Shown here one piece after another: positions 26,931 to 45,227 of a stretch of 64,000 bases of DNA. Below the pieces are notes generated by a model. That model was given only the letters and a program-made list of their open reading frames with translations. It made no database searches and had not been told where the DNA came from. The DNA is taken from contig CABYZT010000001.1 of assembly GCA_902523515.1 (NCBI GenBank), positions 62,001 to 126,000 of the forward strand, in the 5' to 3' direction. The stretch comes from an uncultured Pelagibacteraceae bacterium (lineage in GTDB: Bacteria > Pseudomonadota > Alphaproteobacteria > Pelagibacterales > Pelagibacteraceae). Every line of letters starts with the position of its first letter. The first letter of the stretch is position 1. The translations under genes were made by a program, and so were the position numbers.

Positions 26931-27514
26931 TACAATAAGCTTAAGTATTCCTTAATTTTTTTAACAGGTAGACCCATAATTGTATTTTCGTCACCTTCTA
27001 TGCTTGCAAACAAACTTCGACCCTCTCCTTCTATTTGGTATACATTGTATGCGTAAAGAGTTTCATCAGATATCTTGGATAAATAATTTTTTAATTCGTC
27101 GTCAGTAAAATTTTTCATAGTTAATTTTGCTTTATCAGTATAATTCCAAATCATAGATCCATTTTTTGATATACAAACAGAACTAATCAAAAAATGTGAT
27201 TTACCGTTAAGTTTTCTTAATATTTCCATTGCCTCTTTTCTGCTTTCTGGTTTAGATATTAGTTCGCCGTTTAGATCTATTACACTATCTGCTCCTAAAA
27301 CTATTTCATCTGATTTCTTTGAGCTGACTTTGTTTGCTTTTAATTCTGCCAAATTTTTTGAAATTATTTCTGAACTTGCCTGTTCTTTTAATAAACTTTC
27401 TTTAACAGGCTCTTCATCTACGTTTGAAGGCTCTACAACGCATTTAATATTATTTTTGTCTAAAATTTCTTTTCTAACCGCACTTTTTGAAGCGAGAATA
27501 ATTTTATTTAACAT
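26930..27514 (-). CDS. maf: Maf family nucleotide pyrophosphatase
   Basis: IILASKSAVRKEIL...VLGADSVIDLNGELISKP...GRSLFASIEGDENTIMGLP. Confidence 0.95.
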   Translation of the reverse strand: MLNKIILASKSAVRKEILDKNNIKCVVEPSNVDEEPVKESLLKEQASSEIISKNLAELKANKVSSKKSDEIVLGADSVIDLNGELISKPESRKEAMEILRKLNGKSHFLISSVCISKNGSMIWNYTDKAKLTMKNFTDDELKNYLSKISDETLYAYNVYQIEGEGRSLFASIEGDENTIMGLPVKKIKEYLSLL

Positions 27515-28331
27515 TGTTTAAATATATTTCGTGAATTTTAATTATGGAAGCCGCTGTTTCTTCGACTGATTTTCTCGTTACGTCTATAAGGGGCCATTTA
27601 TATTTTTGAAATGTTTTTTTTGCCTCTAAAACCTCTTTTTTAATATTTTCTAAATCTGTATATTCAATATTTTCTGTTTCTTTTAAAGAATTCATTCTAT
27701 TTTTTCTCAAATCAGCCAATCTTTCTGGCTCTGTACTTAGTCCTACAACGCATGTCATTTGTGGATTTTTTTTAAGAAACTCTGGCAAAGAATTTTCATT
27801 TACTAACGGAATGTTTGACGTTTTAAAACCTTTGTTAGCCAAGTAAATAGATGTTGGTGTTTTGCTTGTTCTACTTACCCCTACAAGAATAATATCTGAT
27901 TTGTCTACTTCGTTTATTAAGTTTCCATCGTCATGATTCATTGTAAATTGAATTGCTTCAATTCTTTCATAATACTCTTCATTCAGTATATGTTGACCGC
28001 TTGGTTCGTGTGTTGCTTTTTGATTTAATATTTTTGAAAAATTTAGAATTAAATTTCCTAAAACACCAAAACATGGAATATTTTTATTTTCGCTCACATT
28101 CGCAAGATATTTAGCTAAGCTGTTATCTACGATTGTATATAGAATTATAGAATTTTCATTTTTTTTTGCATCCTCTAAAATCTTTAGAATTTGATTTTCA
28201 GTCCTTGTAAAAGAATAAGAATGAACCTTATATTCAATATTTAAAAATTGAGCTTTCAGAGCTAAGAATATCCTATCTAAAGTTTCTCCTGTTGAATCAG
28301 AAATCAAATATATTTGGTATGTATTGCCCAT
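27504..28331 (-). CDS. ppsR: Pyruvate, water dikinase regulatory protein (DUF299)
   Basis: YLISDSTGETLDRI...ILVGVSRTSKTPTSIYLANKG...IDVTRKSVEETAASI. Confidence 0.95.
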   Translation of the reverse strand: MGNTYQIYLISDSTGETLDRIFLALKAQFLNIEYKVHSYSFTRTENQILKILEDAKKNENSIILYTIVDNSLAKYLANVSENKNIPCFGVLGNLILNFSKILNQKATHEPSGQHILNEEYYERIEAIQFTMNHDDGNLINEVDKSDIILVGVSRTSKTPTSIYLANKGFKTSNIPLVNENSLPEFLKKNPQMTCVVGLSTEPERLADLRKNRMNSLKETENIEYTDLENIKKEVLEAKKTFQKYKWPLIDVTRKSVEETAASIIKIHEIYLNNVK

Positions 28332-28597
28332 GAATAAACTGTTAATAAATTTGTATTATTATAGTTAAATTAAACAATTGAAAATTTTTTAAAATTACCT
28401 TGTAAAAACTATTATTTACTAACATTAATAATAAATAGGGTAAAACAATCCACAAAAATTAATATGTTAAAAAAGCTTCATTTTAAACAATTTTAACTAC
28501 ATAAGATGTTGGTAAACTGTGAATATAATGTTTATAAAAAGTAATCACCTTTATTCACAAGATATATTACAACTACAATAATTAATAATACTTATTT
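28332..28597. other. Candidate chromosomal replication origin (oriC)
   Basis: 266-bp very AT-rich gap between ppsR and hemE with perfect DnaA box TTATTCACA (28551-28559), 8/9 box ATATTCACA on - strand (28518-28526) and 7/9 CAATCCACA (28446-28454); matches the oriC position next to hemE in Caulobacter/Rickettsia. Confidence 0.7.
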
Positions 28598-29602
28598 ATG
28601 AAACCTTTAAACAAAATAATAACTAACAAAGATACCTCCTTTAATCCCATATGGATTATGAGACAAGCAGGGAGATATTTACCAGAATTTAGAGAAATTA
28701 GAAAACAAAATCCTAATTTTATCAATCTGTGTTTAAATGATGGTTTGTCTTCAGAAATAACTTTGCAACCTTTAAAAAGATTTGATCTAGATGCTGCAAT
28801 AATATTTTCAGATATTTTAATGCTTCCTTACGGATTAGGTCAAAAAGTGGAATTTAAAAAAAATCTTGGACCAAAATTAGGAGAATTGAATTTAAACGAA
28901 GTTGCAAAAATTGATGAGATTGATTTTGTAGAGAAAATTCATCGCGTGTATAAGGCGATAAAAAAAGTTAACTCAGACGAAGTTTTAAACAATAAAAATA
29001 CTATCGGATTTGTTGGTGCCCCATGGACACTATTAGTTTATATGATTAATCAACAGTCTCCTAAAAAAAATTTAAAAAAAAATTTTTTTTCAGACGAGTT
29101 TTTGATAAACAGGACTTTATTAATTATAGAAAAATTTCTAAAAGTTCATATAAAAAATCAAATTGACAATGGTGCAAATATTATCCAAATTTTTGATAGT
29201 TGGGCGGGATTATTAGACGAAAAAGATTTACCTAATTATGTCTATACTCCAACTTTAAATTTAGTAAATTATGTAAAGTCTTTAAATGTGCCAGTGATAT
29301 GCTTTCCTAGAGAAGTAAAAAATTATAAAGAATTTTGCGAAATTGTTAAACCTGATGCTGTTAGCATTGACTATAATGTTGATCCAAAAAAAATACTTAA
29401 AGATATAAAAATACCTATTCAAGGTGGTTTAGACCCTAAAATTTTATTGACAGACAATGAAACTTTGAAAAAGGAAGCCTCTAAATATTTAGAAATTTTT
29501 AGATATCATCCATATATATTTAATCTTGGGCACGGTATACTGCCTGAGACTAATCCAGAAATGGTAGAAAACTTAATCAAAATTGTAAAAAATTTTAAAT
29601 GA
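28598..29602 (+). CDS. hemE: Uroporphyrinogen decarboxylase
   Basis: PIWIMRQAGRYLPEFRE, FSDILMLPYGLGQKVEF, GFVGAPWTLLVYM, FNLGHGILPETNPEMVENL. Confidence 0.98.
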   Translation: MKPLNKIITNKDTSFNPIWIMRQAGRYLPEFREIRKQNPNFINLCLNDGLSSEITLQPLKRFDLDAAIIFSDILMLPYGLGQKVEFKKNLGPKLGELNLNEVAKIDEIDFVEKIHRVYKAIKKVNSDEVLNNKNTIGFVGAPWTLLVYMINQQSPKKNLKKNFFSDEFLINRTLLIIEKFLKVHIKNQIDNGANIIQIFDSWAGLLDEKDLPNYVYTPTLNLVNYVKSLNVPVICFPREVKNYKEFCEIVKPDAVSIDYNVDPKKILKDIKIPIQGGLDPKILLTDNETLKKEASKYLEIFRYHPYIFNLGHGILPETNPEMVENLIKIVKNFK

Positions 29603-36632: not shown

Positions 36633-37276
36633 TGGATCAGGAAATTTTAAATTCTTATTCTAGAATCAATCACTTAAATGTTTCACGTGAAACATTTTTG
36701 GACTTTGAAAACTATATATCGATGATTCTTGAAAAAAATAAAAAAATCAACATAATTAGCCAAAATACAGCATCAAAAAAGGCAATAATTGAACGCCATA
36801 TTATAGATTCTGCACAAATTATTGATTTTGTTGATTTAAATAGCAATACAACCACAGATATAGGTTCAGGAGGGGGTATGCCAGGTATAATCGTGGCAAT
36901 TATACTAAAAAATATGAAAAATAATATGAATGTGCACCTTTATGAAAAAAGTTATCATAAAAGCCATTTTTTAAAAGAGGTTTCAGAAAAATTGAATTTA
37001 AATACAAAAGTTTTTCAAAAAAATATTTTTGAAATAAAAAATTTAGAAACAGGAACCATTATGTCAAGAGCATTTAAGCCAATGCCAGTAGTTTTAGATT
37101 TAGTATATGAAAATTTTTCAAAATATAAAAATTTAATTTTTTTTATGGGGAAGAGTGGAAAAAAAATTTTTGAAAATTCTAAAAAAAATTGGGAGTTGGA
37201 GTATATAGAAAAGAAAAGTTTAACAAGTGAAGACTCATTTTTAATAAATATTAAAAAAATAAAAAAAAAAAATTAA
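36632..37276 (+). CDS. rsmG: 16S rRNA (guanine-N7)-methyltransferase RsmG
   Basis: NVSRETFLDFENYI...KKINIISQNT...IERHIIDSAQI...DIGSGGGMPGIIVAI. Confidence 0.95.
   Translation: MDQEILNSYSRINHLNVSRETFLDFENYISMILEKNKKINIISQNTASKKAIIERHIIDSAQIIDFVDLNSNTTTDIGSGGGMPGIIVAIILKNMKNNMNVHLYEKSYHKSHFLKEVSEKLNLNTKVFQKNIFEIKNLETGTIMSRAFKPMPVVLDLVYENFSKYKNLIFFMGKSGKKIFENSKKNWELEYIEKKSLTSEDSFLINIKKIKKKN
36679..36694. promoter_or_regulatory. parS: parS centromere site (ParB binding)
   Basis: Exact 16-bp palindrome TGTTTCACGTGAAACA, inside the 5' end of rsmG. Confidence 0.96.
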
Positions 37277-37297: not shown

Positions 37298-38092
37298 ATG
37301 CAAATTATATCTGTGATAAATCAAAAGGGTGGGGTTGGAAAAACTACTACGGTAATAAATCTTGCAGCAGGTTTATCTCAAATAGATAAAAAAATTTTAG
37401 TAATTGACCTAGATCCACAAGGTAACGCTACCACAGGCCTAGGATTATCTAATATGGATAACTCAAGTGAAACAATTTATGGAGTTTTGAATGGAACTAG
37501 AGAAATCAGTAAGGTCATTAAAAAAACACAGTTCGAAAATTTAGACATCATAACATCTAATGTAGATTTATCGGGCTTAGAAGTAGAGACAGCTGATGAC
37601 AGTAATAGAGCTTTTATACTTAAGACAAAATTAACCGCATATTTAAACGATTCTAGAAGATTATATGATTATGTTTTGATAGATTGCCCACCTTCTTTAA
37701 GCCTGTTGACAGTAATGGCACTAGTAAGTTCAAATTCATTATTGGTACCACTTCAGACCGAATTTTTTGCTTTAGAGGGTTTAACGCAGCTAATAAAAAC
37801 GATCGAAAGGATAAAAGTAAGTTTAAATCCCGATTTGAAAATCAGAGGTATACTTTTAACTATGTATGACAAAAGAAATAAGCTTTCATCTCAAGTTGAG
37901 AAAGAAGCCAGGGATTATTTTAGTGAAAAAGTTTATTCAACTGTCATACCAAGGAATGTTAGACTATCAGAGGCACCCTCTCATGGTATGCCAGTATTGA
38001 TGTATGATAAGACATGTCCTGGCAGCAAATCTTACTTTAGTTTTACCGACGAATTTATGAATCAGGAATCATCAATTGGGAGTGCTGCTTAA
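37298..38092 (+). CDS. parA: Chromosome partitioning ATPase ParA
   Basis: VINQKGGVGKTTTVINLAAGL, IDLDPQGNATTGLG, IDCPPSLSLLT. Confidence 0.98.
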   Translation: MQIISVINQKGGVGKTTTVINLAAGLSQIDKKILVIDLDPQGNATTGLGLSNMDNSSETIYGVLNGTREISKVIKKTQFENLDIITSNVDLSGLEVETADDSNRAFILKTKLTAYLNDSRRLYDYVLIDCPPSLSLLTVMALVSSNSLLVPLQTEFFALEGLTQLIKTIERIKVSLNPDLKIRGILLTMYDKRNKLSSQVEKEARDYFSEKVYSTVIPRNVRLSEAPSHGMPVLMYDKTCPGSKSYFSFTDEFMNQESSIGSAA

Positions 38093-38934
38093 TGGATAAG
38101 ATTAAAAAAGGATTAGGAAGAGGACTTTCATCGTTGATTGGAGAGACTAAAATTGAACCACAAAAAAATCATATATCAATTAGTGATCTTGTCCCAAATA
38201 AGTATCAACCAAGAAAGATATTTGATGAAGCTAGTTTAGAAGATCTAACCAATTCGATTAAAGAAAGAGGAATGATACAGCCTATAATTGTTAGAAATAT
38301 AAATAATGATAGAACAAAGTTTGAAATTATTGCAGGTGAGAGAAGATGGCTAGCAGCACAAAGAGCTGGTCTTCACAATGTCCCTGTTGTCATAACGGAA
38401 GCAGATGATTTAAAATCTCTGGAATTTGCTATTGTAGAAAATGTTCAAAGACACGACTTAAATCCTCTTGAAGAAGCTCAAGGATATAAAAGATTGATAG
38501 ATGAATTTGCTTATGACCAAGAAAAAGTCTCAAAGTTCATTGGAAAGAGTAGGAGCCACATAACCAATTCCTTACGTCTCCTTACCTTACCAGATGATGT
38601 GATTAAATTAATTGAAACTCAAAAGTTAACCGCAGGTCATGCAAAAGTTTTAGTAGGTCTTGAAAATGCAAGTTTCGTAGCATCAAAAATCATTGAAAAA
38701 AAACTTTCAGTTAGACAAGCAGAAAATTTTGTTAAAATATTTAAAAATAAAAAACAAAAATCTCAAATCTCTAAAGACACAAATATCACTGCTCTTGAAT
38801 TATCTATTTCAAACAAAATAGGTTTAAATGTCGACATACAAAATAATAAAAGAAATAAGGGTAAAATTTCTTTTGAGTATAAAGATTTAAATCAATTAAA
38901 TAAGATAATTGAAATAATTAAACTTCATTATTAG
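38092..38934 (+). CDS. parB: Chromosome partitioning protein ParB
   Basis: GLGRGLSSLIGE, KYQPRKIFDE, IAGERRWLAAQRAGL, VENVQRHDLNPLEEAQGY. Confidence 0.98.
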   Translation: MDKIKKGLGRGLSSLIGETKIEPQKNHISISDLVPNKYQPRKIFDEASLEDLTNSIKERGMIQPIIVRNINNDRTKFEIIAGERRWLAAQRAGLHNVPVVITEADDLKSLEFAIVENVQRHDLNPLEEAQGYKRLIDEFAYDQEKVSKFIGKSRSHITNSLRLLTLPDDVIKLIETQKLTAGHAKVLVGLENASFVASKIIEKKLSVRQAENFVKIFKNKKQKSQISKDTNITALELSISNKIGLNVDIQNNKRNKGKISFEYKDLNQLNKIIEIIKLHY

Positions 38935-44646: not shown

Positions 44647-44672
44647 TTTAGTTTAGATTGAAATTATAAAAG

Positions 44673-44699
44673 GGCCCCTTTTAAGGGGCCTTTTTTTTA
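44673..44699 (+). terminator. Rho-independent terminator after porin
   Basis: GGCCCCTT-TT-AAGGGGCC followed by TTTTTTTT. Confidence 0.93.
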
Positions 44700-45227
44700 T
44701 TCAAAATAAGATATTCCAGCAAATTCTAAATTATCTAGCAGGCTAAGCTTTTTAATATTCTTTTGTGAAATTCCACCTAGAACCACTACTTTTTTCATTG
44801 TTAATTTAGAAAGTAATTTAAACTTATTAATTCCTAAATAGTTTTTATTTCTTTTGAATAAGGAAGATAAAATAATTTTTTCTACTTTTTGAATTTCTTT
44901 ATTCCTAATTTCTTTAAGGTTATGTGCCGATCCAATGATTTTAAATTTTTTTTTAAATGAAAAAGATAAATGATAAAAATCCTTATTAAATGAAGGTATA
45001 TAAGCTCCATCTAAACCCAAATTAATTGCCAACTTAATGTTGTTAGATAAATAAAATTTAATTTTTTTTTTCTTACAATAATTCTTAATTTTTAAAATAA
45101 GTAATTTATCTATTTTTTTTTCAGAGTAATCTCTGTAAATAATAATCGTATTCTTATCTTGTTTATCGATATTATTTGTATCAAATTTATTTATAAAGTA
45201 ATATTTATTGCTTTTATAATAATGCAT
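44697..45227 (-). CDS. ThiE/TenI-like protein (thiamine phosphate synthase family, divergent)
   Basis: LNNIK..LGLDGAYIPS, FKIIGSAHNLKEI, VVVLGGISQKNI resemble a reduced ThiE barrel; start at 45227 or 45239. Confidence 0.65.
   Translation of the reverse strand: MHYYKSNKYYFINKFDTNNIDKQDKNTIIIYRDYSEKKIDKLLILKIKNYCKKKKIKFYLSNNIKLAINLGLDGAYIPSFNKDFYHLSFSFKKKFKIIGSAHNLKEIRNKEIQKVEKIILSSLFKRNKNYLGINKFKLLSKLTMKKVVVLGGISQKNIKKLSLLDNLEFAGISYFE

Follow-up and report, generated by a model that had tools for sequence, protein, structure and literature searches.

A candidate hemE-type chromosomal origin with a DnaA-trio-like array in SAR11 bacteria

The gap between ppsR and hemE

The window analyzed here is a stretch of 64,000 nucleotides, positions 62001-126000 of contig C1 from a SAR11 MAG (G000; 1.2 Mb, 23 contigs, 89.6% complete) whose nearest named relatives belong to the Pelagibacteraceae. 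Within the window, two divergent genes enclose an AT-rich gap:

28332-28597, no strand: candidate oriC, the entire ppsR–hemE intergenic gap, with a box cluster and a conserved arrangement
27504-28331, minus strand: ppsR (COG1806/DUF299), the left flank (PF03618, E 1.6e-88)
28598-29602, plus strand: hemE, the right flank (PF01208, E 2.3e-84)

An original prediction, made from the sequence of the window, had proposed a replication origin here. Its coordinates for the gap are exact, and its names for the two flanking genes are borne out by their Pfam matches. It had also described the gap as one of the largest in the window and as extremely AT-rich. At 266 bp, the gap ranks second in size among the non-ORF spacers of the window, and its GC content of 17.3%, against 28.5% across the window, is the second lowest among spacers of at least 100 bp. 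The genes to the right of the gap run on the plus strand and most of those immediately to the left on the minus strand—again as described, with exceptions. The window contains duplex DNA less stable than that of the gap, and an Rfam search found no RNA family inside or near it. The largest spacer of the window is that at 44647-45158 (512 bp), which holds three DnaA-like sites with one mismatch.

DnaA boxes in the gap

The gap contains the following sites resembling the DnaA box:

28551-28559, plus strand: DnaA box TTATTCACA, exact, beside a trio-like array; 90 of 110 gaps of the genus carry the exact box close to their hemE edge
28542-28550, plus strand: TAATCACCT, perhaps a weak tandem box, directly adjacent to the strong box (weak-box criterion from PMC8287927)
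28340-28348, minus strand: DnaA-like box TTATTAACA, one mismatch, at the ppsR edge within a 13-nt repeat (28335-28347); the plus strand reads TGTTAATAA
28518-28526, minus strand: DnaA-like box ATATTCACA, one mismatch, within a 13-nt repeat (28513-28525); the plus strand reads TGTGAATAT
28529-28537, minus strand: DnaA-like box TTATAAACA, one mismatch; the plus strand reads TGTTTATAA
28446-28454: 7/9 box CAATCCACA, kept only in the nearest relatives

Four sites in the gap lie within one mismatch of TTATNCACA, while dinucleotide shuffling leads to an expectation of 0.93 (p=0.007). Among the 58 spacers of at least 100 bp on contig C1, this one has the most boxes, and the density of such boxes elsewhere among these spacers is 0.39 per 266 bp. 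Moreover, 59 SAR11 gaps contain a mean of 4.19 boxes against 0.85 expected, and 58 of the 59 exceed their own null, although these gaps are not independent because the genomes are related. Perfect boxes behave differently: TTATNCACA occurs four times in the window against 3.6 expected, and 41 times across the MAG, where the reversed pattern occurs 40 times, with no excess over chance in either case. Counts of perfect boxes alone were therefore rejected as evidence for an origin. The possible weak tandem box has four mismatches to TTATCCACA, and reads TTATCATCA in two relatives (L018 and L112).

The perfect box at 28551 is thus present as predicted, though by itself it amounts to no more than chance, and the 8/9 box on the opposite strand at 28518-28526 and the 7/9 box at 28446 were likewise found in their places. 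Of the four sites within one mismatch, two had been overlooked, those at 28340-28348 and 28529-28537. The idea of a minimal origin holds insofar as perfect boxes are few; it calls for qualification in view of the several conserved weak boxes and of the trio-like array, which had also been missed. We also observed a 13-nt direct repeat, TAAACTGT[T/G]AATA, at 28335-28347 and 28513-28525; its two copies each include a DnaA-like box, and both boxes face the same way.

Conservation across SAR11

Wherever both genes were present, in 109 of 109 loci, they flank a gap of ~260-310 bp; other genera of the family, represented by 20 loci, show the same arrangement with a gap of ~270-340 bp. The ends of the gap are kept while its middle is freely variable: a reverse-oriented box lies at the ppsR edge, and a box followed by the array lies at the hemE edge. 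By a loose pattern, the box-like site at the ppsR edge was found in 91 of 110 gaps of the genus and in 18 of 20 from other genera. In these other genera, the box at the hemE edge is TTATTAACA-like. The original prediction had named conservation of the boxes in orthologous gaps as a check on its claim, and both the gap and the boxes prove to be conserved in SAR11. A separate block, AAGCTTCA near 28474-28481, is kept in 86 of 110 gaps of the genus and in none of the 20 from other genera. In the closed genome G040 (L246, L249), the hemE gene beside ppsR is split into two frames, possibly by a frameshift or a sequencing error.

The module of box and array is kept across SAR11 genera, including one that no longer has hemE at this place. 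In this genus (g9; L243, L244, L245), ppsR is followed by a rho-like gene—so named from the similarity of its translated protein to the window's rho, judged by eye—and the sole hemE-like match (31-32%) lies far away. The spacer retains the left-edge box and a middle box, and in L243 and L245 a trio run also comes after a box-like site. The conserved element is therefore independent of hemE, as it persists in a spacer without this gene. This genus may have a rearranged haem pathway, or rearranged genes for it.

A DnaA-trio-like array beside the strong box

The strong box is followed, toward hemE, by two further elements, of which the array had not been seen before:

28560-28563, plus strand: four-base spacer AGAT, from box to array
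28564-28575, minus strand: DnaA-trio-like array, ATA-TTA-CAA-CTA on the plus strand, with the trios read 3′ to 5′ on the minus strand

The array has an A (mostly as TA) at every third base and is the best-conserved part of the gap. Across 115 gaps, many of them from close relatives, A occupies positions +7, +10, +13, and +16 after the box in 99-100% of cases. In 40 diverse gaps, A is found at +19 in 93%, and T at +6, +9, and +15 in 88%, 85%, and 80%, respectively; these four columns played no role in choosing the anchor, of the 46 gaps in the diverse set, 6 escaped automatic anchoring, and a few, such as L184, L185, and L192, took a neighbouring box as their anchor.

How does this arrangement compare with known unwinding elements? 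In the BUS of Bacillus subtilis and others, a DnaA box, a spacer, and DnaA-trios together melt the origin DNA (PMC8287927, PMC6669920), and the trios are 3-nt repeats on the opposite strand (PMC8287927). The SAR11 gap likewise has a box and a short spacer, and its 3-nt repeats lie on the side and strand that a BUS would predict; the possible weak tandem box is a further likeness. A BUS calls for a box with at most two mismatches at 0-16 nt from the trios, and here TTATTCACA has one mismatch to TTATCCACA and a 4-nt spacer. This spacer is shorter than the published peak of 10-13 nt. In addition, the SAR11 trios are mostly 3′-TAT-5′ and 3′-GAT-5′, and the third is off consensus (CAA) in this genome and in the window's own clade. 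Because of this third trio, the published strict rule of three trios in a row fails in this genome: a run of at least three consecutive 3′-NAN-5′ trios is absent in the window, and is present in L016 (from G063, a close closed relative with four trios in a row), L017, L111, L179, L187, and many other relatives. On these comparisons, the box and array resemble the DnaA-trio/BUS module, and they are probably the unwinding module of the origin. A loose genome-wide pattern of box plus array was discarded as unspecific, because it matched about as often as its reversed control and failed to hit several true gaps.

Alternatively, the gap could be an origin in which the period-3 array is just a conserved AT-rich stretch, such as a part of the hemE leader or promoter, and not a working DnaA-trio element. 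TA steps are indeed common at 28% GC, the third trio is broken in the window's clade, the loose pattern finds as many matches elsewhere as its reversed control, and a promoter-like match at 28554-28582, itself at chance level, overlaps the array. A mere AT-rich stretch would not readily account for the nearly invariant A at +7, +10, +13, and +16, nor for the fit of the columns outside the anchoring in the diverse gaps, and a hemE leader would not be expected to persist where hemE is gone. We consider this alternative unlikely, although it retains some weight.

Strand asymmetry and the partition site

We sampled 20 stretches of 20 kb from each of four closed relatives (G063, G077, G005, G026). 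Since raw GC skew is dominated by gene orientation, we replaced it with the third-position GC skew split by coding strand, comparing presumed leading- and lagging-strand genes; TA3 skew was dropped, as its sign was opposite in two genomes. The original prediction had suggested GC skew as a check. In G063, G077, and G005, the switch in skew is greatest if hemE is taken as the origin, while G026 has its maximum at -4% of the genome; the switch at hemE over the four genomes has a permutation p of 2e-4. The pooled peak lies -2% of the genome from hemE (bootstrap 5-95% range, -5% to 0%), at a resolution that is only a few percent of the genome, or tens of kb, with sampled stretches. The leading-strand coding fraction also peaks at hemE (0.639). 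On the window's own contig, the best skew break falls at 80-110 kb, with the gap at 90 kb, and the break amounts to 0.068 at the gap versus 0.048 at dnaA (158 kb).

A partition locus lies to the right of the gap:

36679-36694, no strand: parS TGTTTCACGTGAAACA, the sole site with fewer than three mismatches in the MAG
37298-38934, plus strand: parA and parB, with AAA_31/ParA-type ATPase and ParB domains

This parS, the only exact one in the MAG, is 8 kb from the gap. Among the closed relatives with a mapped hemE, those of the genus have parS 7-10 kb from hemE; in G005, it lies on the opposite side, at 17 kb. As in other ParABS systems, parA, parB, and a canonical parS are found close to the putative origin; the difference is that nearly every closed SAR11 genome examined has a single near-perfect parS (G043 has two, adjacent).

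These data bear on two further alternatives. As the skew places the origin to tens of kb only, and as ppsR and hemE diverge with promoter-like matches between them, albeit at chance level, the gap might be only a divergent promoter region with DnaA boxes serving transcription, while the origin lies elsewhere within the skew interval. This seems very improbable, considering that the gap exceeds every other spacer on the contig in its number of boxes, that the element survives in g9 with hemE gone and rho after ppsR, and that the gene neighbours match those of the Caulobacter origin (PMC1914354). An origin adjoining dnaA, as in many bacteria, is hardly credible and was rejected for its poorer fit to the skew break on the own contig; dnaA shares the contig with the gap, at a distance of 67 kb, and does have a 314-bp AT-rich spacer upstream, but this spacer is outside those with the most boxes, and parS adjoins the gap, not dnaA.

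Apparent absence of CtrA control

The Caulobacter origin is blocked by the regulator CtrA. The SAR11 gap contains neither CtrA nor IHF consensus sites, and over the 59 SAR11 gaps both occur near chance level. These sites are not universal, as they are absent in some Ehrlichia and Wolbachia (PMC1914354). With the NCBIfam CtrA model, none of 58 SAR11 genomes gave a match above the cut-off of 350 bits (the best reached 148), whereas one control genome did; the model is named for the Rhodobacter-type CtrA, and a divergent CtrA may still occur in SAR11. The ctrA orthologue has also been reported absent from Pelagibacter (PMC2877005). From these two lines of evidence, SAR11 appears to lack CtrA, and we read the gap as a putative hemE-type origin without the CtrA branch. 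GANTC motifs are absent from the gap and nearly absent from the 59 SAR11 gaps, which is weak evidence, because GANTC is rare genome-wide in the sampled SAR11 genomes (0.49 of expectation; 0.72 in spacers). SAR11 has been reported to possess CcrM (PMC3973325).

Discussion

The origin of Caulobacter is proven and that of Rickettsia is predicted, and both share the gene neighbours of the gap (PMC1914354); the original prediction had taken an origin beside hemE as established for both. The likeness of the SAR11 gap to Caulobacter crescentus Cori and other alphaproteobacterial hemE/COG1806 origins extends to the flanking genes, the AT-rich gap, and the several DnaA boxes (PMC1914354). In contrast to Cori, the SAR11 gap is shorter and without CtrA or IHF consensus sites. 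Of the features that mark hemE-type origins, the location between hemE and COG1806, the AT content above that of the genome, the box cluster above chance, and the switch of strand asymmetry at the site, in the relatives and on the own contig, are all found here; the CtrA and IHF sites of the Caulobacter type are not. The sequence comparisons support well the view that the gap is a well-resolved alphaproteobacterial hemE-type oriC, at the place expected for such origins.

We conclude that the ppsR–hemE gap is very probably the chromosomal origin of SAR11, with a probability of roughly 93%. The oriC reading of the original prediction is supported by the skew switch, by the conserved gap and boxes, and by the single parS 7-17 kb away. 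The boxes, conserved array, skew switch, and parS were computed directly, and from them we infer that DnaA binding, unwinding, helicase loading, and the start of the forks take place at the gap.

How might replication start at this site? First, DnaA would bind to the strong box at 28551-28559, aided by the weaker boxes at 28340, 28518, and 28529. Then, a DnaA filament would pass from the strong box onto the minus strand across the array at 28564-28575, and would open the AT-rich duplex beside the hemE start. Helicases would load at the opened duplex, and from there two forks would move apart and produce the pair of replichores that the skew shows. Finally, ParB on parS, 8 kb away, would segregate the new origins.

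We tentatively propose, at somewhat below even odds, a stripped-down, CtrA-free version of the hemE-type origin. In such an origin, one strong box would feed the trio array over a 4-nt spacer, conserved low-affinity boxes of the TTATTAACA type would assist, and the level of DnaA alone would set initiation.

In the literature, we found no detailed description of a SAR11 oriC, although an entry may exist in prediction databases, for instance DoriC. The SAR11 terminus has been fitted from coverage, in a study whose consulted passages name no oriC (PMC9589681). Beyond the oriC call, the present analysis adds a conserved module of box and array, a set of weak boxes, and a control by CtrA that is apparently absent.

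Few cells in the sea are as common as SAR11 bacteria. Metagenomic growth estimates rely on a known origin and terminus, and a 266-bp origin with a probable unwinding module would provide an anchor for them. Moreover, the gap may serve as a small test object for the start of replication in alphaproteobacteria without CtrA.
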